This document shows, in pieces, positions 3 through 10,668 of a DNA stretch of 10,723 nt (position 1 is its first letter; every line of letters begins with the position of its first letter). This stretch comes from Candidatus Desantisbacteria bacterium CG1_02_38_46 (GTDB lineage Bacteria; Desantisbacteria; UBA1551; UBA1559): assembly GCA_001871015.1 (NCBI GenBank), contig MNUO01000004.1:1-10723 (forward strand), read 5' to 3'. Under the pieces are notes generated by a model that saw only the letters and a list, made by a program, of their open reading frames with translations, had not been told where the DNA came from and did no database searches. Both the position numbers and the translations under genes were made by a program.

Positions 3-248
3 TCTTCAAAATATCTGTATTTCAATGATGGTAAAAGACGTCAGCAAATAAGATGCAAGGTCTGTTCTTCTCTGACACAGGTTCATCCCAGAGACAGAGA
101 AACTCGAAAGAGCAAATACGCCTGTCCATATTGCACTCACAAACTTTTCCTGTGGAAGGAAAATAAGGACGTATCGATTTACAAGTGCTGCAATGACAAC
201 TGCTCTCATTATTTAACTATATATAACGCATTAAAGGTTTGCACATAA
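3..248 (+). pseudogene. Transposase N-terminal fragment with zinc ribbon, interrupted by IS630 element
   Basis: This reading frame is open from the window edge to a TAA at 246-248. Its cysteine pairs (RCKVC, CPYC, then KCCNDNC) are arranged like the zinc ribbons at the N-terminus of a family of DDE transposases found in anaerobic bacteria; the match is from memory of the family, which I cannot name precisely. The recognisable part ends near NCSHYL, about 225. The last residues and the stop codon are read from the left inverted repeat of the IS630 element, so the catalytic part of this transposase is missing. The start lies outside the window. It is the only convincing plus-strand gene here, and it is almost certainly inactive. 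Confidence is high that it is a transposase-like fragment and lower for the family. Confidence 0.6.
226..243. repeat. Left terminal inverted repeat of the IS630 element
   Basis: ACGCATTAAAGGTTTGCA here matches the reverse complement of 1316-1333 (ACGCATTAAATACTTGCA) at 15 of 18 positions, with mismatches at positions 11-13. The stop codon of the catalytic transposase frame (231-233) lies inside it. Confidence 0.8.
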
Positions 249-773
249 TGTTTTCAAGGTATTATTAGACTGTTCCCAGTCTGCGAAACAAGAAATTAAA
301 GAGCTCCTGAGTTCTTTCACAAGTTTGAAATACCGATTATGAGTTACTTTGCGCCGTGTAATTCCCCATACCCGTTCAATAGGATTAAGTTCAGGAGAAT
401 ATGGTGGCAGAAATATTCGCTTAAGCCGGTATCGGTTTTGAATAAAGAATTTTTTTAAGTCTCGTGCCTTATGCCAAGGAGCATTATCAAGAATCAAGAA
501 TATTTTCCCTCGAGTATGGGCAAATAAATATTCAAGGAATTCTCGAAATGTATCGCCATTGAATGTAGAAGCCTCTTTGGTTAGAAGACGTCCCGTTTTT
601 AAATTGATTGCTCCAAAGAAACCAATTTTCTCTCTGGTTGAGGCAGAAGCCACTTGAGGCTGTTCTCCTTCGGGAGCCCACATTTGTATTAAACTGGTGT
701 GTCTTTGAAAATGAACTTCGTCTGTAGCCCATAATTGAATGCGGGAATCTTTCATCCATCTGTAGAATTTTTT
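231..773 (-). CDS. IS630 transposase, catalytic DDE part (ORF B)
   Basis: This frame holds the RNase H-like catalytic domain of an IS630-family transposase, which cuts and rejoins the element's ends. The three acidic residues sit in typical motifs: the first Asp in LWATDEVHF, the second in FLILDNAPWH, and the Glu in PPYSPELNPIERVW. An ATG at 755 would give a 174-residue protein starting MKDSRIQ and overlapping the upstream frame's stop as ATGA. However, the frame is open back to a TAA at 774-776, exactly at a run of eight A, and the added residues (KKFYRW) look like family sequence. It is therefore more likely made as a fusion with the upstream frame through slippage. The stop codon lies in the left inverted repeat. 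Confidence 0.85.
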   Translation of the reverse strand, partial: KKFYRWMKDSRIQLWATDEVHFQRHTSLIQMWAPEGEQPQVASASTREKIGFFGAINLKTGRLLTKEASTFNGDTFREFLEYLFAHTRGKIFLILDNAPWHKARDLKKFFIQNRYRLKRIFLPPYSPELNPIERVWGITRRKVTHNRYFKLVKELRSSLISCFADWEQSNNTLKTLCANL

Positions 774-1261
774 TTAAACTTTTCTTGCTCAACAACATCT
801 GCCTCTCGGGCTTTTCTGCGAGGGCGTTGTAAAGTGAATCCCATCTGGTGAAAGAGATACTGACATTGCCGAACTTGAAGCATTGCTCCGTAGCGTTCTT
901 TAAGATGGTGAGAGAGTAAAGGACCATCCCATAGGTTTTGGGAATATCCCAATTCTCGTGGAGAATGCCGTATTTCCTTTTTTAACTTTCGCCTTTGGGA
1001 TAAGGAAAGTCGAGAAGGACGTCCCGGACGTTCTCCTTCTTGCAGACCGGCAAATCCAGATGTTAGGAATCGCTGTAGCCAATACTGCACGGCCCGGGGA
1101 GAATCTCCATAAACCCGAGAGATTTCTTTAGTTTCCATGCCACGAAGAGCACAAAGAACAACATGAAGTCGATGAAAATATCTACCTTCTGGACGATGCG
1201 AAATTTCATCTTGAATAGCAGCAATGAATGTTTCTACATCCGGAACTGCTCTTTTTCTCAT
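752..1261 (-). CDS. IS630 transposase, helix-turn-helix DNA-binding part (ORF A)
   Basis: This 169-residue frame is the N-terminal half of the IS630 transposase and binds the terminal repeats. A helix-turn-helix is visible around residues 35-75 (LCALRGMETKEISRVYG...SPRAVQYWLQRF). It is followed by the GRP-containing linker (GERPGRPSRLS) and a second winged-helix-like segment containing LSHHLKERYG and GFTLQRPRRK. Past the A-run, the last residues (NSTDG) are not family-like, which supports a -1 shift into the catalytic frame. The ATG at 1261 follows a GGGGG-containing Shine-Dalgarno at about 9 nt, and that site lies inside a hairpin (1261-1293). The promoter is at 1293-1320. Confidence 0.85.
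   Translation of the reverse strand: MRKRAVPDVETFIAAIQDEISHRPEGRYFHRLHVVLCALRGMETKEISRVYGDSPRAVQYWLQRFLTSGFAGLQEGERPGRPSRLSLSQRRKLKKEIRHSPRELGYSQNLWDGPLLSHHLKERYGAMLQVRQCQYLFHQMGFTLQRPRRKAREADVVEQEKFKKNSTDG
768..775 (-). other. Probable frameshift site (run of eight A) joining the two transposase frames
   Basis: On the minus strand the sequence reads TTTAAAAAAAATTC. The upstream frame passes through it as TTT AAA AAA AAT. The downstream frame has a TAA ending at 774 and opens only within the run. A -1 slip here gives EKFKK(K)FYRWMKDS, joining the two halves without loss. Ribosomal slippage and transcriptional slippage are both possible. Confidence 0.6.
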
Positions 1262-1293
1262 AGGAATAAACCCCCTTTTTAGGTTTATTCCTA
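1261..1293 (-). promoter_or_regulatory. Hairpin covering the transposase ribosome-binding site and start
   Basis: A perfect 12-bp inverted repeat (TAGGAATAAACC at 1261-1272, GGTTTATTCCTA at 1282-1293) encloses a 9-nt loop. In minus-strand RNA the loop and second arm contain the G-rich Shine-Dalgarno and the first base of the ATG at 1261. RNA reading in from outside would form the whole hairpin and hide the start. RNA from the element's own promoter would begin within the first arm and could not form all of it. This is a known way for insertion sequences to block activation by neighbouring promoters; that it applies here is inference. Confidence 0.6.
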
Positions 1294-1320
1294 TTATAGC
1301 ATATTTTTTTAAAAATGCAA
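1293..1320 (-). promoter_or_regulatory. Transposase promoter
   Basis: On the minus strand, TTGCAT (1320-1315) and TATAAT (1298-1293) are separated by 16 bp, with a run of seven A in the spacer. The -35 box overlaps the inner end of the right terminal repeat, as in many insertion sequences. Transcription would start near 1286, inside the first arm of the hairpin at 1261-1293. Confidence 0.65.
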
Positions 1321-1333
1321 GTATTTAATGCGT
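1316..1333. repeat. Right terminal inverted repeat of the IS630 element
   Basis: This is the partner of the repeat at 226-243. Its inner end (TTGCA on the minus strand) also forms most of the -35 box of the transposase promoter. Its outer part contains the TAA stop (1325-1327) of the interrupted Fe-S protein gene. Confidence 0.8.
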
Positions 1334-2500
1334 TTCATATAAATCATCAAAGATTTTTGTGCCTGTTATAGCAGAGTATCCGTTTATATCCAGAAAGTGA
1401 GCAATTTCGAAAGCAGTATAATTAAGTCTGCGATAGATGCTTGCCGTTACCTCTGAATTTGCTCCGGATGGTATCTTTATTCCTATTGAAACAAGTGCCA
1501 CAATGTCCGGCAGGTGATATTCCGGATGTACGTGCGCGTCATTGTCAAAATCTTCTTTCTTGCCGACGGCAAACATATCTATTGAATTTTCCCTGCAGAT
1601 ATTTTTGATTTTATCGGCAAGGTCTTCAGGAGATGCAATTAATTTTTCTTTTTTTCGCCTGGGTGCCCGGCAATATGAAAGGTCTGAAACCCGCTTTTCC
1701 GGCACCATGCAGAATTTCAGACAACACCCTTCTTCACCTGTATGCATACCGTATTTTTCATGATATGCGAGAATTACTGATTCGTTCACTTTTTCAGGTA
1801 TTTGCAGGGCCAGATTTAAGCAAAAATTTTCTGCCCATGAACAGCGCCATTTATTGGTATCAGGAAATTCAAAAATCTTTCCGCCGATTTCAATCTTATT
1901 TTGTTTTTTTACTTCCTTTCTGAAACAATCAGTGGGGCAATTTTTCACACACATCATACACTTGTCGCAGAGAGGATTTCCGCTGTACATAGATGAAGGT
2001 TTTAGATCTGCTTCGGTAATGATAGAGACAAATCTCTGCCGCGGTCCAAATTCCGGCGTAAGAGTAAGGCCGCTCCAGCCGATTTCTCCCATGCCTGCAG
2101 CAACGGCAGCATACCTGTGTGCCAGGTCAGGGGCAAAATCAACTTTTAAATCCTTATAACCGTGGTAGCGCCAGATATTACTTGCAGCAATGGGCAGTGT
2201 TTTATAACCTTTGTCCTCAAGAAAGCGAGCCAGAAGAAACGAAATGTCATTCAGTTTCGGATTTATCACAGAGCTCTGACTGCCATAAGGACCCATGTCA
2301 TGCGGCGTCGGTTCTCCGCCCAGTTCAACCGAGGCATCCAGATGATGGATGGCAGCTACAACTACAGATTTTGCCTCAGGTAGAAGTCCCGGCGGACTCA
2401 TTCTTAAAGGCGCTCCTTTAAATCTTTCTACGGGTGCAATGCCCACTAAATCCGCTCCCAGTTCTCTCGCCTTCCTTATTACTTCTTCTGTCAAGTCCAT
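1325..2500 (-). CDS. QueG/reductive-dehalogenase-like Fe-S protein with a second, truncated copy of its N-terminal domain
   Basis: This 391-residue protein resembles the cobamide-dependent Fe-S reductases related to epoxyqueuosine reductase (COG1600). Residues 1-165 form the N-terminal domain, with the family-like stretch AAGMGEIGWSGL at about 134-145. A ferredoxin-type motif follows, LCDKCMMCVKNCP (Cys178, 181, 184, 188), and further cysteines (220, 227, 259, 260, 264) could ligate a second [4Fe-4S] cluster. From residue 291 the chain begins a second copy of the N-terminal domain (DLADKIKN...DMFAVG, then PDIVALVSIG and AHFLDINGY). It stops after about 100 residues, where ETH-stop is read from the IS630 end. 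The original gene was therefore probably longer. I chose the ATG at 2500 because GGGAGG lies 4 nt upstream; an ATG at 2512 with GGAAGA upstream is possible. The substrate is unknown. Confidence 0.75.
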   Translation of the reverse strand: MDLTEEVIRKARELGADLVGIAPVERFKGAPLRMSPPGLLPEAKSVVVAAIHHLDASVELGGEPTPHDMGPYGSQSSVINPKLNDISFLLARFLEDKGYKTLPIAASNIWRYHGYKDLKVDFAPDLAHRYAAVAAGMGEIGWSGLTLTPEFGPRQRFVSIITEADLKPSSMYSGNPLCDKCMMCVKNCPTDCFRKEVKKQNKIEIGGKIFEFPDTNKWRCSWAENFCLNLALQIPEKVNESVILAYHEKYGMHTGEEGCCLKFCMVPEKRVSDLSYCRAPRRKKEKLIASPEDLADKIKNICRENSIDMFAVGKKEDFDNDAHVHPEYHLPDIVALVSIGIKIPSGANSEVTASIYRRLNYTAFEIAHFLDINGYSAITGTKIFDDLYETH

Positions 2501-2540: not shown

Positions 2541-3503
2541 TTAAAAATCTTTTTTCATAACCATCCATATCTCTGTAGGAACAAAACCTGCTTTTCCATA
2601 ATAATTACTCTTATCAACTGCGCCAAAAGCGATTATTCTCCTACCCCCTCTTCTCCTGACCATCTCAAGTACCTTAAAAAGAAGAATAAGACCTATCCCC
2701 TTTCCCCGAAAGTCCTCCTGAAGTCCAATCCCTATTCCCAGGCAAGCATCACCTGATTCGGAGATATGAGAGGGACCAGCAAAACCAATGAACTCATTAT
2801 TTTTTCTAACAGTCATTATTTCTTCTGCTGACAACTTACCAATTGATGTTAATATAGAAAATTGTTCATGCCAGCTGCCAGGAAAAACTTTAGAAAGAAA
2901 ATCTAAAAATTTATCCTGCCCTAATATTTGTAGACATTCCAAAGTAATTCCACTGTTTTTTAAACATTCTTCTCTCTCATAAATATAAGAAGGAATTTCC
3001 ATCTGTGCAAGATCAACGGTCATAGAATCAATAGAAGAAACTACCTCAAATCCATACTTTTTAAAGAAAATAATTGCTTCCTGCCAATGGGAGGATACCC
3101 CTAGAAAAGAAAGAATGGTTCCTCGTAGATATGTAGGATATCCTGCTCGTATTCGTGTTTCCCCTTTTTGAAGTAAAAATTTAATTGCTTCTTCCAGCAA
3201 TTTTTTTCCTATTCCCTTCCTCCTTTCCTCTGGATGAACCATAATAACAGGTATACAACCCGGGAATTCTCCAGTGGGAGTAAAAGGAATTTTCTTTGTT
3301 GCAGTCATAACAAAACCTATTATCTGATTGTTCCTGCGGGCAACAAAACATCCTTCAGAATTGAGAGCAAAATCTCCAAAGAATTGTTTTTGGAAAACAT
3401 TTTCTGGAATCTTGTAATCCTGAAACACCATATTCCAGAGAATATCAATAGAATGAAGATATTCGGGTTTAAACTGATCAATAGAGTAGGTTTGTTTTGA
3501 CAT
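2541..3503 (-). CDS. Tandem GNAT N-acetyltransferase
   Basis: This 320-residue protein has two GCN5-related acetyltransferase domains. The first (about 5-165) contains the acetyl-CoA pyrophosphate loop RRKGIG at residues 94-99 within VHPEERRKGIGKKLL. The second (about 185-320) contains RGKGIG at 266-271 within LQEDFRGKGIGLILL, and ends in the typical NYYGKAGF motif. Both loops look intact, so both domains could bind acetyl-CoA. Many tandem GNAT proteins keep only one active domain. No signal peptide is visible, so it is probably cytoplasmic. The ATG at 3503 follows AAGG at 4 nt, and the gene starts 16 nt after the methyltransferase stop, consistent with co-transcription. The acceptor cannot be read from the sequence; an amino sugar or amine from the pathway is a guess. 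Confidence 0.8.
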   Translation of the reverse strand: MSKQTYSIDQFKPEYLHSIDILWNMVFQDYKIPENVFQKQFFGDFALNSEGCFVARRNNQIIGFVMTATKKIPFTPTGEFPGCIPVIMVHPEERRKGIGKKLLEEAIKFLLQKGETRIRAGYPTYLRGTILSFLGVSSHWQEAIIFFKKYGFEVVSSIDSMTVDLAQMEIPSYIYEREECLKNSGITLECLQILGQDKFLDFLSKVFPGSWHEQFSILTSIGKLSAEEIMTVRKNNEFIGFAGPSHISESGDACLGIGIGLQEDFRGKGIGLILLFKVLEMVRRRGGRRIIAFGAVDKSNYYGKAGFVPTEIWMVMKKDF

Positions 3504-3519
3504 ACAACCTTCACATGGA

Positions 3520-4902
3520 TTAACTGACTAATTTATCAGAGGCTTCTTGATATATTCTATCCAATTCTTTTTTTATTTTCTCTTCTAAGTAAAAATTGTG
3601 CTGAGCAATCTTTTCTTTAGCAATTTTTTTTGCTTCTTCTTTTAATTGTAAAAAATTTTCATACTTGAAGAAAAGTTTTGGTTCAAGATAAATCTTACGG
3701 TATTCTAAAGTTGAAGGATGATCTAAAAACATTCCAGAGACAATCCCTTCCTGAATAGTTTGAAAAGATAAACCTTCTTCCTTAACTTCAAATCCCTGCA
3801 TAAATTTCTCAACATGAGAAACTATGTCACTATGTATTACAAGATGAACAGGACTGAACGCACCTCCTGATGTTGCTCCTGCACTAAGAAAAGTCTTTGC
3901 TCCGGCCAGAGCACCCACAGCAAGAGAAAATCCTAATTTAAACATGCCCTGAATATTATCTATTGTTCCTCCAAACGCTACTCCCATCATCTCTCCAATA
4001 ACATAATTTATCACCTGTCTTACAGCATTACAATAGAGAATGGATTCAGGAAAAGGAAATGATGGAGTCATTTTTTTAAGATCAAATAGAAATCCTCCAA
4101 AAGAACAATAGGAATACACTTCAGGATCAATCAATTTTGGAGTGATATAAGCGGCAAGTGCTTCAGCCATTCCCTGAATGAGCATCCCTGGAAAAAAGAT
4201 TGGAGCAGTAGCCCCAGCCATTGGAACTGCTCCTCCTCCAAGACAAATTCCTTTTAAATTGTGCTTTTTAATTCTATTGTTATAAATAAGTTCTAATGCA
4301 TGAAAATTCAATCTGAGGGGGCTAATAGGAATTTCTAAGGTTACATAAGGTGGTTCCCTTCCTGCGATTTGTCCCATAAGACACATATATTCTGCTTCCT
4401 CCATGCTTGAAGCAAGAGTATACCCTCCTATCATCTGACTGTTTTCAATGCAGATTTTAAAAGTAGCAATTTGATGCAGGTGTTGAGGGACAGTCTGAAG
4501 ATGTATAGGAGAAGGACCGTACATCTGGTAGGCATCACATATCTTCACAGCATTTTTCAAATCTTCAGCAGTGGCCAGGCGAGTTTCCTCAGTATCAATA
4601 TCCATATAATTAAGTGGCATATAAGGAGGAACCATGGTAAATCTGGAAGTATTGTGTCTGTTATATGAATATTCTGCATTCTGAGATTTTATTTTTTGAA
4701 TAAACTTTTCCACTATATCTGTTGAGTAATATACGCGATTGCCATCTACCTTTATTCCTTTATATGTGGAAAGTAGCTTAAGAATACCTTCATGGTTAAT
4801 TTCCACACCCACTTTTTCCAACACCAATAATGTTTCCTTATAAATTTTCTTCAATTGAGATTCAACCAATCCACCTGACAAAAAATAATTTACATTTTCC
4901 AT
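3520..4902 (-). CDS. MttB-superfamily (trimethylamine-type) methyltransferase, non-pyrrolysine
   Basis: This 460-residue protein belongs to the MttB superfamily (COG5598), whose members transfer a methyl group from a quaternary or tertiary amine to the Co(I) of a corrinoid protein. The TIM-barrel core shows the family stretch AVPMAGATAPIFFPG with following MAEALAAY (about 225-252). A later segment with GEMMGVAFGGTIDNIQGM and the glycine-rich AGATSGGAF (303-349) also fits, as does the C-terminal FLDHPSTLEYRK (392-403). The length is normal and no internal amber codon interrupts the frame, so it is a non-pyrrolysine member. Characterised members of that type act on glycine betaine, carnitine, proline betaine or gamma-butyrobetaine; the substrate here is unknown. 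No corrinoid protein or activase gene is in the window. An AAGGAG precedes the ATG by 10 nt. Confidence 0.85.
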   Translation of the reverse strand: MENVNYFLSGGLVESQLKKIYKETLLVLEKVGVEINHEGILKLLSTYKGIKVDGNRVYYSTDIVEKFIQKIKSQNAEYSYNRHNTSRFTMVPPYMPLNYMDIDTEETRLATAEDLKNAVKICDAYQMYGPSPIHLQTVPQHLHQIATFKICIENSQMIGGYTLASSMEEAEYMCLMGQIAGREPPYVTLEIPISPLRLNFHALELIYNNRIKKHNLKGICLGGGAVPMAGATAPIFFPGMLIQGMAEALAAYITPKLIDPEVYSYCSFGGFLFDLKKMTPSFPFPESILYCNAVRQVINYVIGEMMGVAFGGTIDNIQGMFKLGFSLAVGALAGAKTFLSAGATSGGAFSPVHLVIHSDIVSHVEKFMQGFEVKEEGLSFQTIQEGIVSGMFLDHPSTLEYRKIYLEPKLFFKYENFLQLKEEAKKIAKEKIAQHNFYLEEKIKKELDRIYQEASDKLVS

Positions 4903-4931
4903 TTTTTGAGTTCTCCTTATAATTTCCCTCT

Positions 4932-5591
4932 TTATTTAGCTGAGAGAGCAATTTTTAATCTAATCATATATTCACCCTGCCAGCGTTCGTCTGGTGCTTG
5001 ACCAGGACGTAAAGTATCAAAATCAAAGGTAAAGCCACCATCCTTACTGGAACAGCTGCGGTTATAACTCTTGCTGGTGTCAATTGCCATGTAAAAACCT
5101 CCATAGCTCGCATTCTTAGGGTTATCCTCTGACAATTCTGACCACCTAAATTTGATAGTATTTTCTCCTTTTTCAAGCAGTTGTGGTTTAATAGATATTT
5201 CATGACATCCTCTTGTAGCTAAAAAAATACCTTCTGTTTCTATTGCCACTTCATCATTTACCAGAATTTGTATATTTGCCCAATTTATTCCCTCCACAGG
5301 TTTATTGAAATGCTTTTTCAGTGGTGAAAAGTAGGGGGCGTAGCCTATTTTATACCAAATCTTTGCTTTTTTTATCTGGTTCGGATTGATATCTAAATTG
5401 ATTATTTTACAGATCACTTGACCTGGATGGAAACACACTCCCCAATATGACTCATCAACACCATCATCATCCTGAATTGTTATCCACACATAGTTATCCT
5501 CTCCAACATTCTCTGCTTTTACCCCTTTTACCCCAAGAAACACCAAGATAAAAATTGATGTCACTGCTATTCCTGATTTTATTGTTTTCAT
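4932..5591 (-). CDS. Small secreted protein, probable beta-sandwich, unknown family
   Basis: I do not recognise this 219-residue protein. Residues 1-26 are a clear Sec signal peptide: MKTIKSG, a hydrophobic core, and cleavage probably after VKA. No lipobox is seen. The mature part is rich in aromatic and beta-forming residues. One stretch, WANIQILVNDEVAIETEG, followed later by ISIKPQLLEKGENTIKFRW, resembles the beta-strand and 'GeNtI' pattern of galactose-binding-like domains. There are five cysteines (53, 61, 129, 180 and one in the signal region or absent from pairing), so disulphides are possible. GAGGAGG lies 6 nt upstream of the ATG. It sits 26 nt after the DUF4838 gene and 29 nt before the methyltransferase, so it is probably co-expressed. 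A glycan-binding accessory role is a guess. Confidence 0.65.
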   Translation of the reverse strand: MKTIKSGIAVTSIFILVFLGVKGVKAENVGEDNYVWITIQDDDGVDESYWGVCFHPGQVICKIINLDINPNQIKKAKIWYKIGYAPYFSPLKKHFNKPVEGINWANIQILVNDEVAIETEGIFLATRGCHEISIKPQLLEKGENTIKFRWSELSEDNPKNASYGGFYMAIDTSKSYNRSCSSKDGGFTFDFDTLRPGQAPDERWQGEYMIRLKIALSAK

Positions 5592-5617
5592 ACACTTCCT
5601 CCTCGTATAATATATTT

Positions 5618-8167
5618 TTAACGAAACAAAAGGAAACCAAATTTGTCTGGACTCAGATTATTACCAGCAGTAAATCTCCATCCACTTATTTCTTTATTTT
5701 TCTCCTTCCCACTTTGGCGCTGTCGAGTAAAATTAACCTTCCATCTGGAACCAGAATTCGGTTTCTTCTCTGCAAAAGAAACAAAAGGAATAGCCATTTC
5801 TACTGTCCAGAATAAATCTCCTTTATAAACTTTAGCTGAGTACTGCGGATTCCATCCAGTATTAGTTATGTAAGCATCATATTTTATCTCAGAGGCTGAA
5901 ACTATTATCTGATAAAACTTATCTCCATTAGATGATGGAACTACAAAAAACTCGATACAATCATCTCTCCATACACGTCCATCATGTTCCTGAATCTCAG
6001 TTACAAGATCTCCCATGTTTTTTTCCATGCAGAGATAGGCTAAATAGAGATTATCAGAATCGTAAGCAACCCCCACCAGTGTTGGCTGTGAAACTAGAAT
6101 ATCAGATTGATATTCTCGAAAATCATCAACCTTCTTAGCCTTCAACCAGCATTTATCATCTAATATTCCATCAATCTTGGGTGGAATAGAGGTAAACTCT
6201 GCTGAAAGAGAATCACTATTGATTATAGCAGGATGGATATTATAAACAAAAGATTTGAGCCAGCGGATATTAGATTTAGCCCAGGGACTATTGTCAAAAG
6301 CTTGTGCCCAAGCTCCTTTTTTACCTGCTTTTTCCATCAGTAATCCTATTTTCAGATATATGGAATCAGTAAAAGAATTTGGAGGCAATTTTTCTACCCA
6401 ATTCTTATAGTTATTAACAGCAAAAAGCAAAACTTCATCCTTTAGTTGGGATATTTTTTCTAATTCAGTAAGTTGTTCAAATTTATTTAAAAAAGATGAT
6501 AAATTTTTCCTCCATCCTTCAAAAGAAGAAAGAAAGAAATTTGCACGAGATTTTTCCTTCTCTGTCCCTGCTTTTTCTACAACTAATTTTAATAGCTGTT
6601 CGCATTTAACCATATCATCTATTCTGAGGGGAACAAGATAATTGCTTGAATTAAAATTCATATACTGATTTTTCCTTCCACTCTTAAACCATTCTGATTG
6701 GGGAATTCTCTTTGTCCAGTATTCCTCCCAGAATGCAAAATACTCTGCAAGATACGGAGCAGCTTCTTTACCAACAGCACATTCGTACCACTCCTTTAAA
6801 GTCTTATCAACATCCAGATTTGGATTCCACTGTAATTTTAGAGATAAATATAGCTTTGGACCTTCTCTCCAATCCGCAGCAGGATATGCTTCAGCATAAA
6901 GAGCTCGTACATTATTCTCATAAGCAAACCGGTAATATTCTGCCATTTTATGAAACCATACCCGCGGGGTAATATAATGGTCACGTGGTTTTCCATATAT
7001 GTAGTCATACCAACCCAGTGTGGAAGCAAATTTCGCCCATTCTCCTGTTAATTTCTGGCCTTCTTTCTCTATTTCTTTATCTGCCCACTTTAAACGTTCG
7101 TAGGTCATATAAGGGATAATATGGGAGTTCAATTTTACCTTGGAAGGTGGGTCGAAAACCTCGCTATAAGCAAGCAATCCAAAATATTTATCAGGATATT
7201 TTTTCAGTACTCCCTCGACCACTGCATTACACCATTCATAATATATATCTGAGTAATTTCTTAATCCTAAACTGTTTTTCTTATCACCAACCCTTGCCAG
7301 ACACTCTCCACACTTACAATGTCCACCTTCATCGTTGACACCCAGAGAATAAGAAGTCCGTTCTGGATTTTTAGTAAAATACTCACAGATATTCTTGATT
7401 GCTTCTTCAACAATGCCTTCACTACTAAAACAGGGTTGCCACCCGTGTGTTTTATTATCTTTGGGAAGATAACGTGTTTCTTTTTCTTTAATTGGAAAAA
7501 ATTGTGGGTGGATTTTGGTATATGTCTCCGGCGGAAAAAGACGGAGAAGATTATGATGAAATCTTACCCGGTGATGCATCCGATTATATCTTGCCCAGTC
7601 TGCTTGCTCTTTTCCCTTTAATCCGCTGAAGAAACGGGAGAAGAAAATGGGCTCCTGTTGAACTTCTTTTGTTGAGATTTTCAATGTCTCATAACAAGGA
7701 ATATATTCACCTAATTCTCCTGGAAAAAGCCATCGGATTCCAATATATCTCTCCAGAAATTCGTAAACACCAAACTCGGTCCCAAATTCAGAGCCACCAA
7801 TAATAACTATATTTTTGTCATCCGGAAAAGAAATTACAAAACCATCGGCATCCAGTTTTTCAATTCCCAGGTTTAAGTTTTTAACATAAGAGGTATTTCC
7901 CAGGTGAATTTTAATAAGACCTATATCTGCTGGTTCTTTCTGAACAGGAATTTCAGCTTTGGTGCTTAAAAGAATATATTTTGAGAGTGTGTGCGCAAGA
8001 CTTTCTAATGAACTATTTACATCAGCAGGAACAACAACCATGACCAAAGGTTTCCCATTTTCTACCAGAGTAATTGTTTCTGTTACTTCTGCATAAATTC
8101 CTCTACTAAAAATACATAGCAGGTTTACCATCACAACTACCTCCAACCAAACATTTATTTTTCCCAT
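5618..8167 (-). CDS. Secreted DUF4838 glycoside-hydrolase-like protein with C-terminal CBM9-like domain
   Basis: This 849-residue protein has an N-terminal signal peptide (hydrophobic 8-20, cleavage near IYA at 24-26). Residues 35-165 resemble the N-terminal domain of GH67 alpha-glucuronidases, including GGSEFGTEFGVYEFLER and IRWLFPG. Residues 170-500 form the DUF4838 TIM-barrel-like domain with its CxCxxC motif (Cys284, 286, 289, in NDEGGHCKCGEC). The acidic residues near 279-280 and Glu336 are candidates for catalysis. A helical region follows at 510-645. Residues 655-849 are a CBM9/DOMON-like carbohydrate-binding domain, with PPKIDGILDDKCWLKA, a DDCIEFFV strand and the closing WKVNFTR. AAGGGAGG lies 6 nt before the ATG. 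Its activity is unassigned; a role in exported or periplasmic cleavage of uronic-acid or amino-sugar glycans is inferred from domain relatives. Confidence 0.8.
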   Translation of the reverse strand: MGKINVWLEVVVMVNLLCIFSRGIYAEVTETITLVENGKPLVMVVVPADVNSSLESLAHTLSKYILLSTKAEIPVQKEPADIGLIKIHLGNTSYVKNLNLGIEKLDADGFVISFPDDKNIVIIGGSEFGTEFGVYEFLERYIGIRWLFPGELGEYIPCYETLKISTKEVQQEPIFFSRFFSGLKGKEQADWARYNRMHHRVRFHHNLLRLFPPETYTKIHPQFFPIKEKETRYLPKDNKTHGWQPCFSSEGIVEEAIKNICEYFTKNPERTSYSLGVNDEGGHCKCGECLARVGDKKNSLGLRNYSDIYYEWCNAVVEGVLKKYPDKYFGLLAYSEVFDPPSKVKLNSHIIPYMTYERLKWADKEIEKEGQKLTGEWAKFASTLGWYDYIYGKPRDHYITPRVWFHKMAEYYRFAYENNVRALYAEAYPAADWREGPKLYLSLKLQWNPNLDVDKTLKEWYECAVGKEAAPYLAEYFAFWEEYWTKRIPQSEWFKSGRKNQYMNFNSSNYLVPLRIDDMVKCEQLLKLVVEKAGTEKEKSRANFFLSSFEGWRKNLSSFLNKFEQLTELEKISQLKDEVLLFAVNNYKNWVEKLPPNSFTDSIYLKIGLLMEKAGKKGAWAQAFDNSPWAKSNIRWLKSFVYNIHPAIINSDSLSAEFTSIPPKIDGILDDKCWLKAKKVDDFREYQSDILVSQPTLVGVAYDSDNLYLAYLCMEKNMGDLVTEIQEHDGRVWRDDCIEFFVVPSSNGDKFYQIIVSASEIKYDAYITNTGWNPQYSAKVYKGDLFWTVEMAIPFVSFAEKKPNSGSRWKVNFTRQRQSGKEKNKEISGWRFTAGNNLSPDKFGFLLFR

Positions 8168-8256
8168 TTTGTGCCTCCCTTAAATTATTTTTACAAGGAG
8201 CGAGTTTTTAAATCACCTCATTTAACTCTTTAACCCTGCAACTCTATATGAACTTT

Positions 8257-10215
8257 TTAAGACTTCAGTTCTTTATTCGACCTACCTGTCTCTACAATGA
8301 CAAGGTTTTTCCTTTTTATAGTAAAAGGACCTTTTATTTTACTTTTACTTAAAAGTTCACTTCCTTCTATTCCTATATCCACAATTTTATCTTCCAATGT
8401 TTCATTAAAGAGAAATAATAGTTCTTTATCTCCGTTCTGCCGTTTTCTTAAAGTTATCCCCTCGGGAAGGTCATCAAAATGTTGTACATTTGCTTCTTTT
8501 AAAAGTGAAGAAAAAAGATAAGAATAGAAAGAATCTTCTGGGAATGTTCCCAGATAAAAGACATTACCGTTTCTGGTAAAAGCAGCATCTGCAATATAGG
8601 AATTGTTATATTTAGCCAAAACCTGCGCTTTTTTCGGAACTATCTCCTGACAAAGCACAGAACAGTCAAATTCTTTCCCTTTTATTTTTATCCTTCTCTG
8701 TTCCTCGGTACAGCTTTCTCCTATTTCAATTCCACAGAGTCTCCTTAACGCTGGATGTAATGTACCAGGAATAACATTGTTATTCTCATTTTTTAATCCT
8801 GAACCGCACGTAATAAAAACAAAACCTCCATTTTTTGTATAGTTATTCAGATTCCTGATAAGATTATCAGTTATTATATATAGTGCAGGAAGGATAACCA
8901 ACTTGCAAGAAGACAGATCGTTCTCACTTGAGAGAACATCAATATTTATCCCAAACTTAGATAATGCATTCCATACGGAAAATACTATTTGCTCATATTG
9001 TTTGCCAAAATAAGGGGCTCTATCTAATGCCCATCGTGAAGGATAGTTAGTAAGCATTGCCACCTCTGAAATCACAGAAGAGCCTTTTAAATGAGATTGG
9101 AGATTTCTCAAGTTTTTACCTGTGAAAGCAATTTCCTTATAATAACGGCCGCGACTTCCATCATTCTCTAATATCCCGTGATGAAGTTGTTCATGGGCAA
9201 ACGGACATTGCCTCCATCTGAAATATAATATCCCATCTGCTCCCTGAGAAATAGCTTGATACGTCCACAGTCTAATCATTCCCGGTGCGGAAGAGGTAGT
9301 AGCGATATTCCCAAAATTTGTATCAGAAGACCTTTGTTCAACTACCCAGAAATTTTTCTTTTTAAAACCACGGACAGAATCCATCTCCAAGGCATGATAA
9401 CATTGGAACAGAGGATAATTGATTGTTGCTGCAATATCCTGATTCTTGAAGAAATTAAAGTAGTCAACAGTGTGAGCATAAAAACCACCTTGGGCATTTG
9501 TTGTAATTGGCTTCTTTGAATATTTCCTTAATGCTTCTACCTGAAGATTAACCAAAGAAACAGTATTTTCGCTATTAAACTTCATCCAGTCCTGGTATTG
9601 CGCAGGATAGAATCCTCCGCTCGGATCAATCTGCGGAGGGTCAATCTGTGAGAATTCATTATATTCATTCCCCCAGAATACAGTTCCCCAGACTCTGTTT
9701 AAGTCCTCTATATTTTTATATTTTGCCCCAAGGTATGCTTGAAATTTTTTTCTGCAGAGAGAGCAGTAACAGATATTCCCAACAGCATATTCATTGTCTA
9801 AATGCCAGCCGATAAGTAAGGAATTTTTACCAAAATGCTCTGCTAATTTTTTTGCTAATTCTCTTGCTTTATCCCTTAGTAAAAAGTTGGAAAGACAGGT
9901 GTAGTATCTACCACCTGAGGAGACTCTGTGCCCTTCTTTTGTTACCCTTATCATTGAGAGGTCTTTCTCAATTAGCCAGGGTGGTGCCCCCCGGGAAGGA
10001 ACACCAAGAAGGATACCAATCCCTTGTTTCTCAAGGATTTCAAATATCCTGTCCAGCCATTCAAAATCGTACCTACCGTCTTCAGTTTCCATCCTGCTCC
10101 AGCAAAATTCACCAATTCTTACCGCGTTAAATCCTGCTTCTGCCATAAGTTCTGCATCTTTTTCCCATCGAGCCTCACACCAATGCTCAGGATAATAATC
10201 TGCTCCGTAATACAT
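8257..10215 (-). CDS. GH42 beta-galactosidase
   Basis: This 652-residue enzyme is a glycoside hydrolase family 42 beta-galactosidase. The N-terminus (YYGADYYPEHW, then GFNAVRIGEFCWSRMET) is typical. Glu142 in WHLDNEY is the expected acid/base, and Glu293 in FWVVEQRSS is the expected nucleophile. Cys107, 149, 151 and 154 occupy the positions of the zinc site known in thermophilic GH42 enzymes. The barrel (1-370) is followed by the trimerisation domain (about 385-580) and a small beta domain. The length is normal. No signal peptide is present, so it probably acts in the cytoplasm on imported oligosaccharides. The ATG at 10215 has GGGG 7 nt upstream, and that site overlaps the last codons of the remnant gene upstream. 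A gap of 89 nt with no terminator separates it from the DUF4838 gene. Confidence 0.9.
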   Translation of the reverse strand: MYYGADYYPEHWCEARWEKDAELMAEAGFNAVRIGEFCWSRMETEDGRYDFEWLDRIFEILEKQGIGILLGVPSRGAPPWLIEKDLSMIRVTKEGHRVSSGGRYYTCLSNFLLRDKARELAKKLAEHFGKNSLLIGWHLDNEYAVGNICYCSLCRKKFQAYLGAKYKNIEDLNRVWGTVFWGNEYNEFSQIDPPQIDPSGGFYPAQYQDWMKFNSENTVSLVNLQVEALRKYSKKPITTNAQGGFYAHTVDYFNFFKNQDIAATINYPLFQCYHALEMDSVRGFKKKNFWVVEQRSSDTNFGNIATTSSAPGMIRLWTYQAISQGADGILYFRWRQCPFAHEQLHHGILENDGSRGRYYKEIAFTGKNLRNLQSHLKGSSVISEVAMLTNYPSRWALDRAPYFGKQYEQIVFSVWNALSKFGINIDVLSSENDLSSCKLVILPALYIITDNLIRNLNNYTKNGGFVFITCGSGLKNENNNVIPGTLHPALRRLCGIEIGESCTEEQRRIKIKGKEFDCSVLCQEIVPKKAQVLAKYNNSYIADAAFTRNGNVFYLGTFPEDSFYSYLFSSLLKEANVQHFDDLPEGITLRKRQNGDKELLFLFNETLEDKIVDIGIEGSELLSKSKIKGPFTIKRKNLVIVETGRSNKELKS

Positions 10216-10216
10216 T

Positions 10217-10468
10217 CTACTTCCCCTTTTTTAATGAAAAAGTTTCAAAAATGCTTCCGTTACTTTTAATTATCTCCACATCAATAGATTTATTATTTAC
10301 AGTTACCTTGCAAATGTGAAGAATATTAGCCGCAAAAATCTGATAAGGATTATAAACTTCATTAACCGGATAATGTAATGGATGCGGTGAAAGATAAAGC
10401 AAGCCAGCCCCTCCCGTAGCAATAAAGTGTTTCCCTTTATATATGGTTCTTCCGAGAAAACTATGGGT
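10217..10468 (-). pseudogene. C-terminal remnant, probable metallophosphoesterase
   Basis: The frame is open from a TGA at 10499-10501 to a TAG at 10217-10219. From SFLGRTIYKGKHF onward it reads like the end of a calcineurin-like phosphoesterase: IATGGAGLLYLSP resembles the 'sGGGG..ly' loop, and ICKVTVNNKSIDVEIIKSNGSIFETF resembles the closing beta-strands ('vtvdgd.v.v.vi.pdG.i'). The residues before SFLGRT come from the palindromic repeat cluster, so the N-terminal catalytic part and its metal ligands are gone. A TTG at 10402 could start a 61-residue peptide, but no real function is expected. Its stop lies 1 nt before the GH42 ATG, so the intact gene was once translationally coupled to GH42. 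The family call is from memory of motifs only. Confidence 0.45.
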
Positions 10469-10471
10469 AGT

Positions 10472-10557
10472 AGGTATCCACCTGAGGCGGACTGCTACTC
10501 ATCCCGATTCCAATCGGGGCCACCCCCCTGTCTTTTGTCAAAGACAAAAAGGGGGGT
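10472..10557. repeat. Cluster of GC-rich palindromes (possible small mobile or REP-like element)
   Basis: Three adjacent inverted repeats stand out against the AT-rich background. At 10477-10491, TCCACCTGAGGCGGA is a near-palindrome. At 10503-10518, CCCGATT and AATCGGG are 7-bp arms around CC. At 10523-10556, six C pair with six G around an inner stem of TTTTGTC and GACAAAA (10533-10539, 10543-10549). The cluster replaces the missing N-terminal part of the phosphoesterase gene. No transposase is present, so it would have to be moved by another element. None of these palindromes was seen elsewhere in the window. Confidence 0.55.
10523..10556. repeat. Long G/C-ended stem-loop
   Basis: The outer arms are C6 (10523-10528) and G6 (10551-10556). 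The inner arms are 7 bp with an AAA loop (10540-10542), and the internal loop is asymmetric (4 nt on one side, 1 on the other). It lies in the path of transcripts from the promoter at 10641-10668. The stem is not followed by a U-run on the minus strand, so a simple intrinsic terminator is unlikely. Confidence 0.5.
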
Positions 10558-10640: not shown

Positions 10641-10668
10641 ATTATATTCACTTTTTAGAAATTGTCAA
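10641..10668 (-). promoter_or_regulatory. Consensus sigma-70-type promoter reading into the cluster
   Basis: On the minus strand, TTGACA (10668-10663) and TATAAT (10646-10641) are separated by 16 bp. Both boxes are perfect consensus. It points toward the phosphoesterase remnant and GH42 and is the only strong promoter I see upstream of them, so it is the likely operon promoter. Transcripts would pass through the leader inverted repeat and the palindrome cluster before GH42. No operator was recognised, and 10669-10723 shows no gene. Confidence 0.7.

Follow-up and report, generated by a model that had tools for sequence, protein, structure and literature searches.

An MttB-superfamily methyltransferase gene in a putative glycan-catabolic operon of a Candidatus Desantisbacteria genome

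The window, by which we mean the whole 10,723-nt stretch of DNA that was analysed, carries on its minus strand a run of six same-direction genes extending from position 10215 down to 1325, with successive gaps of 89, 26, 29, 16 and 28 nt. The first gene (8257–10215) encodes a GH42 beta-galactosidase-like protein of 652 residues (Pfam GH42, 373 bits against a cut-off of 21), which contains the motifs DNE at 140 and VEQ at 292; from these motifs, we take the two glutamates to be of the catalytic type. The second (5618–8167) encodes a secreted DUF4838 protein of 849 residues with a GH67N-like N-terminus and a C-terminal CBM9 domain (Pfam DUF4838, 163 bits; CBM9_1, 33 bits). It is followed by a secreted protein of 219 residues without a Pfam match (4932–5591) and by an MttB-superfamily methyltransferase of 460 residues (3520–4902; Pfam MTTB, PF06253, 100.9 bits against a cut-off of 25), hereafter the window MttB. 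The GH42, DUF4838, CBM9_1 and MTTB scores all exceed the curated cut-offs. Signal-like N-termini, read by eye, are present in the DUF4838 and 219-residue proteins and absent from the GH42 and MttB proteins. No homologue of the 219-residue protein was found in any locus examined, nor in viral contigs, and its structure prediction (pLDDT 33) was unusable.

The sequence-only reading had described these four genes as one tightly spaced run, and the open reading frames and the gaps of 89, 26 and 29 nt were recovered as it gave them. The 16-nt gap that it listed last has the size it reported, but the gene list was incomplete: this gap leads to the fifth gene of the run, encoding a tandem GNAT acetyltransferase of 320 residues (2541–3503), and then, after 28 nt, to the sixth (1325–2512), encoding a truncated reductive-dehalogenase/QueG-like 4Fe-4S protein of 395 residues. 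The tight spacing supports the operon-like linkage that had been proposed, and by this spacing the six genes would form one operon and would be transcribed together. A promoter-like site, TTGACA-16-TATAAT, lies on the minus strand upstream of the GH42 gene (10641–10668) and is a consensus match only (12/12), in a region where such matches occur at chance level (28 found against 30 expected). In the 29 nt that precede mttB, the promoter scan gave no minus-strand match, and an Rfam scan of the window gave none. No SusC/SusD pair, the criterion for a polysaccharide utilisation locus of the Bacteroidota type, was present among the scanned window genes. On the other side of the GH42 gene, a minus-strand open stretch of 93 codons (10217–10498), without a clear start or a Pfam match, stops immediately ahead of the GH42 start codon; it may be what remains of an upstream gene.

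The product of the sixth gene corresponds to the N-terminal half of a two-domain family of 742–769 residues, full-length members of which, in genomes G416, G409 and G262, are 65–67% identical to it across its 395 residues. It scores below the cut-offs for both reductive dehalogenases (44 against 160 bits) and QueG (35.6 against 200 bits); G416 contains 13 matches to this RDH/QueG-like family. The second domain is gone in the window at the point where an IS630-type element begins. This element (218–1341, minus strand) is bounded by 26-nt terminal inverted repeats (218–243 and 1316–1341) and encodes an IS630-type transposase in two overlapping frames (231–755 and 752–1261, minus strand). At the contig edge, a plus-strand stretch (3–248) reads as a zinc-finger-like fragment of transposase type.

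The mttB frame has no internal stop, hence no UAG/pyrrolysine codon. The predicted structure of the window MttB, an AlphaFold model built from 15 clade members (pLDDT 86), is similar to the Desulfitobacterium hafniense glycine betaine methyltransferase MtgB (Z-score of 32.0 with 2QNE, with 22% identity; see also 9YCE) and to the pyrrolysine-containing trimethylamine methyltransferase MttB of Methanosarcina barkeri (Z-score of 31.6 with 7XCL, and of 31–32 across 7XCL–7XCN), with 436–438 residues aligned. The next fold in the comparison is MtmB, with a Z-score of 15. The model indicates that the window protein has the MttB/MtgB fold over its full length. Like MtgB, it contains no pyrrolysine; it differs in this respect from M. 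barkeri MttB, and scores 125.5 bits against the cut-off of 525 for the trimethylamine methyltransferase equivalog TIGR02369.

In a maximum-likelihood tree of 50 proteins, the window MttB falls within a 16-member clade that excludes MtgB (support 99/98). A placement among MtgB, MtcB, MtpB and MtyB had been proposed as a check; the tree provides it for MtgB. The sister of the window MttB is the homologue in genome G415 (48% identity in the search and 47% across the aligned tree columns), followed by those in G416 (35%) and G262 (29%). All three genomes belong to one other phylum, in which 18 of the 35 genomes examined carry a relative at E ≤ 1e-12. MttB is absent from the other genome of the same order as the source genome, and the window MttB shares only 18% identity with the second MttB of the source genome, which is encoded on contig C79. 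A contig scan with the single window sequence gave no matches, and one with a three-sequence MttB alignment gave eight loci at 22–27%, which were of little use; viral contigs gave no MttB match.

The nearest homologues of both the MttB protein (48%) and the RDH-like protein (67%) are thus in another phylum, as would be expected if the contig were mis-binned and came from that phylum, that of G415, G416 and G262. We regard this as very unlikely. The tetranucleotide distance of the window to the other contigs of the source genome is 0.104, inside the range of those contigs among themselves (0.067–0.18), and its distance to G415, G416 and G417 is larger (0.16–0.18). Moreover, proteins 50–67% identical to those of that phylum are also encoded on other contigs of the source genome, including one with many housekeeping genes. 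Exchange of genes between the two lineages, or catabolic genes inherited from a shared ancestor, would explain this more simply.

Compared with ten non-redundant clade members, the window MttB departs from the clade at 15 of 43 conserved columns (A24T, P135L, D137T, Y277K, V281S, G283P, F300Y, K313T, P315D, D346G, E347G, E352V, E359D, W412F and, at residue 416, G416N). In the same comparison, the sister protein from G415 deviates at 5 of 37 columns and the homologue from genome G416 at 12 of 44. The window MttB also lacks approximately seven residues of a C-terminal loop bearing a conserved F-H-L-W-G stretch. In M. barkeri MttB, the loop comprising residues 396–452 contributes to corrinoid-protein binding, and Gly372 touches the corrin ring (PMC9842639); residue G346 of the window MttB, counted by hand along the alignment, aligns with Gly372. 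The lost residues, which include D137, Y277, G283, K313 and D346-E347, and the loop deletion would fit a protein that has changed function, keeping its fold for another chemistry on a glycan-derived intermediate or persisting as a non-catalytic relic. We consider such a change unlikely, given that superfamily-wide conserved columns are kept at 12 of 14 positions and lost at just two, that the 460-residue frame is intact, and that the G416 homologue is nearly as deviant. Comparison with the G415 gene (dN of 0.47, dS of approximately 2.4, which is saturated, and dN/dS of approximately 0.2) further suggests purifying selection, and with it a maintained protein with an altered residue set. Because so many clade-conserved residues are lost, demethylation by the window MttB can be called no more than plausible, and the protein may have lost its activity.

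Corrinoid-dependent methyl transfer would require partner proteins, and no corrinoid protein, activator or tetrahydrofolate (THF) methyltransferase is encoded in the window, which does not hold the three components in one cluster. The three-component set is nevertheless present in the genome outside the window. Contig C5 encodes an MtgC/MttC-type corrinoid protein with the DxHxxG motif (NF047996, 218.7 bits, under the cut-off of 370), contigs C17, C89 and C33 each encode a RACo-type reductive activator (RACo_C), and methyl-THF:corrinoid methyltransferase-family proteins are encoded on C17 (PRK07535, above its cut-off) and on C13, the latter also encoding CODH/ACS subunits. The earlier statement that no corrinoid protein is at hand therefore stands for the window and fails for the genome. 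The genes for MtqC and MtqA/RamQ of Eubacterium limosum are not linked to those for the non-pyrrolysine MttB homologues MtpB, MtcB and MtyB, and MtqC serves all three (PMC8604678). Unlinked corrinoid partners are thus normal, and the lack of a linked corrinoid protein near the window MttB is not odd.

The window MttB resembles these E. limosum proteins, and MthB of the same organism, in being a non-pyrrolysine homologue. However, the genes for MtcB and MtyB lie beside a transporter or a regulator (PMC8604678), whereas the window mttB lies beside glycosidase genes. Its similarities to MtgB extend to the MtgC-like corrinoid protein of the source genome; it differs from MtgB in belonging to a different clade, in having no linked mtgC or mtgA, in its position among glycosidases and in the loss of several clade-conserved residues.

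Other members of the clade are also found near carbohydrate-active proteins. In G416, the GH2, UroD and MttB genes follow one another in a single run, 33 and 26 nt apart. A DUF4838 gene lies upstream of mttB in G391 and 3.4 kb away in G392; in G409, the neighbours are a UroD protein, an MGH1-like glycosidase and an amidohydrolase, an arrangement repeated in G408 without a UroD gene in view; and in G262, UroD genes, a GDSL esterase and DUF2961/GH172 are nearby. On other MttB branches, an MttB of G416 is accompanied by GH20, an MGH1-like glycosidase, two UroD proteins and a tandem GNAT protein, and an MttB of G262 adjoins GH29. A different conserved neighbourhood, with no relation to glycosidases, surrounds clade MttB genes in five genomes of the other phylum, where a nucleoside hydrolase of the inosine-uridine type and, by reading, a macrodomain-like protein are encoded nearby.

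A glycosidase was found near MttB in approximately 8 of 20 loci, as against 2 of 18 random stretches of the same genomes (p=0.07; p=0.16 if the control count is 3 of 18), the control proteins and one case locus having been classified by eye; this enrichment is suggestive only. In a search centred on DUF4838, MttB occurred in none and UroD in one of 17 loci of other genomes, and no GH42 gene was found beside any other MttB locus examined. The sequence-only reading had named confinement of the pairing to this genome as a result that would speak against it. The general pairing of the clade with glycosidases recurs in another phylum, and the exact set of GH42, DUF4838 and MttB was seen only in the source genome.

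With the glycosidase enrichment this weak, the window MttB might demethylate betaine or another quaternary amine unrelated to the glycan, its neighbours being there by chance or through common regulation. Trimethylamine (TMA) or acidic quaternary amines are the substrates of those members of the superfamily that have been characterised (PMC12155760). Glycan-related and UroD genes abound in the source genome, so that chance adjacency is likely; UroD genes are equally frequent in random stretches of related genomes. We nonetheless hold such a function to be rather unlikely, as mttB is flanked by gaps of just 29 and 16 nt, the clade is found by glycosidases in several genomes, and neither a betaine transporter nor a corrinoid gene is nearby; no transporter for TMA or acidic quaternary amines is linked to the window MttB.

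The source genome (1.73 Mb, 88% complete) encodes approximately 25 UroD-family proteins, counted from 26 profile matches of which two fall in a single frame. Among 98 sampled genomes, the number is typically 0–2; seven of the 98, among them the source genome and its fellow member of the order, have at least 18, counts in this sample being capped near that value. Members of the UroD superfamily include O-, S- and halogen-demethylases (PMC10418091); the O-demethylases MtvB, OdmB, VdmB and MtoB and the MtaA-like proteins, with which the proteins of the source genome share this superfamily, belong to a family other than MttB. Several of the source-genome UroD genes adjoin alpha-L-fucosidases, GH20, an FGGY kinase and L-fucose isomerase. 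In two loci (L092, 3652–13398, and L091, 153–10467), pairs of UroD genes lie by alpha-L-fucosidase (GH29), FGGY kinase, L-fucose isomerase and GH20 genes, making up a fucose-glycan locus. The UroD genes of this genome are on contigs C51, C65, C83, C90 and C101 and others, many of them in sugar-catabolic loci. Adjacency of UroD to MttB was considered as a signal and dropped, given that random stretches of the same genomes hold UroD genes just as often (nine in 210 kb against six in 150 kb; p=0.79).

On contig C79 (locus L004, 33–13032), the second MttB lies between UroD-family and CBM9 proteins. The cluster also encodes a DUF6785/DUF6784 membrane protein and a second UroD protein, as well as, by reading, a pyruvate-dehydrogenase-like E1 alpha/beta pair, an SDR protein and an amidohydrolase.

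Our preferred reading, which we hold tentatively and at somewhat less than even probability, is that the window contains a small glycan-catabolic operon in which an MttB-clade type I corrinoid methyltransferase demethylates something obtained together with the glycan. The secreted DUF4838/CBM9 and 219-residue proteins would act on an extracellular polymer by binding or cutting it, and galactoside ends would be cleaved in the cytoplasm by the GH42 protein. The MttB-family protein might then take a methyl group from a quaternary-amine or O-methyl substituent accompanying the glycan and pass it to the unlinked MtgC-like corrinoid protein, from which the methyl-THF methyltransferase and then CODH/ACS, through acetyl-CoA synthesis, could use it. 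The first and last parts of this scheme follow from the families present; we infer the link between them, including the MtgC-like protein as partner, together with co-transcription, what the methyl donor is and where it comes from, and that the window MttB is an active demethylase. The clustering of the second MttB with a CBM9 protein and two UroD-family proteins speaks for glycan demethylation, whereas the lost residues and loop, the amine substrates of characterised relatives, the absence of MttB from the 17 DUF4838 loci, the glycosidase p-value and the lack of UroD enrichment speak against it.

On a broader view, which we consider distinctly unlikely, the MttB clade and the numerous UroD proteins would together form an anaerobic corrinoid route by which methyl groups are removed from methylated glycans and enter the Wood–Ljungdahl pathway. 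Methylated sugars are present in algal and microbial polysaccharides. Literature searches, with limited terms and in a limited collection, found no anaerobic demethylation route for methylated sugars and no paper that connects loci of glycoside hydrolases to proteins of the MttB or UroD type. The parts of the system are ordinary and their combination is unusual: a known superfamily is represented here by a variant whose setting is not described in the literature searched. A demethylase clade tied to glycan operons, together with CODH/ACS and approximately 25 UroD proteins, provides a concrete and testable candidate. If true, the proposal would give methylated sugars, or betaines linked to glycans, a way of being used anaerobically, and would extend the substrates of the MttB superfamily past amines, a question left open by its authors (PMC8604678).
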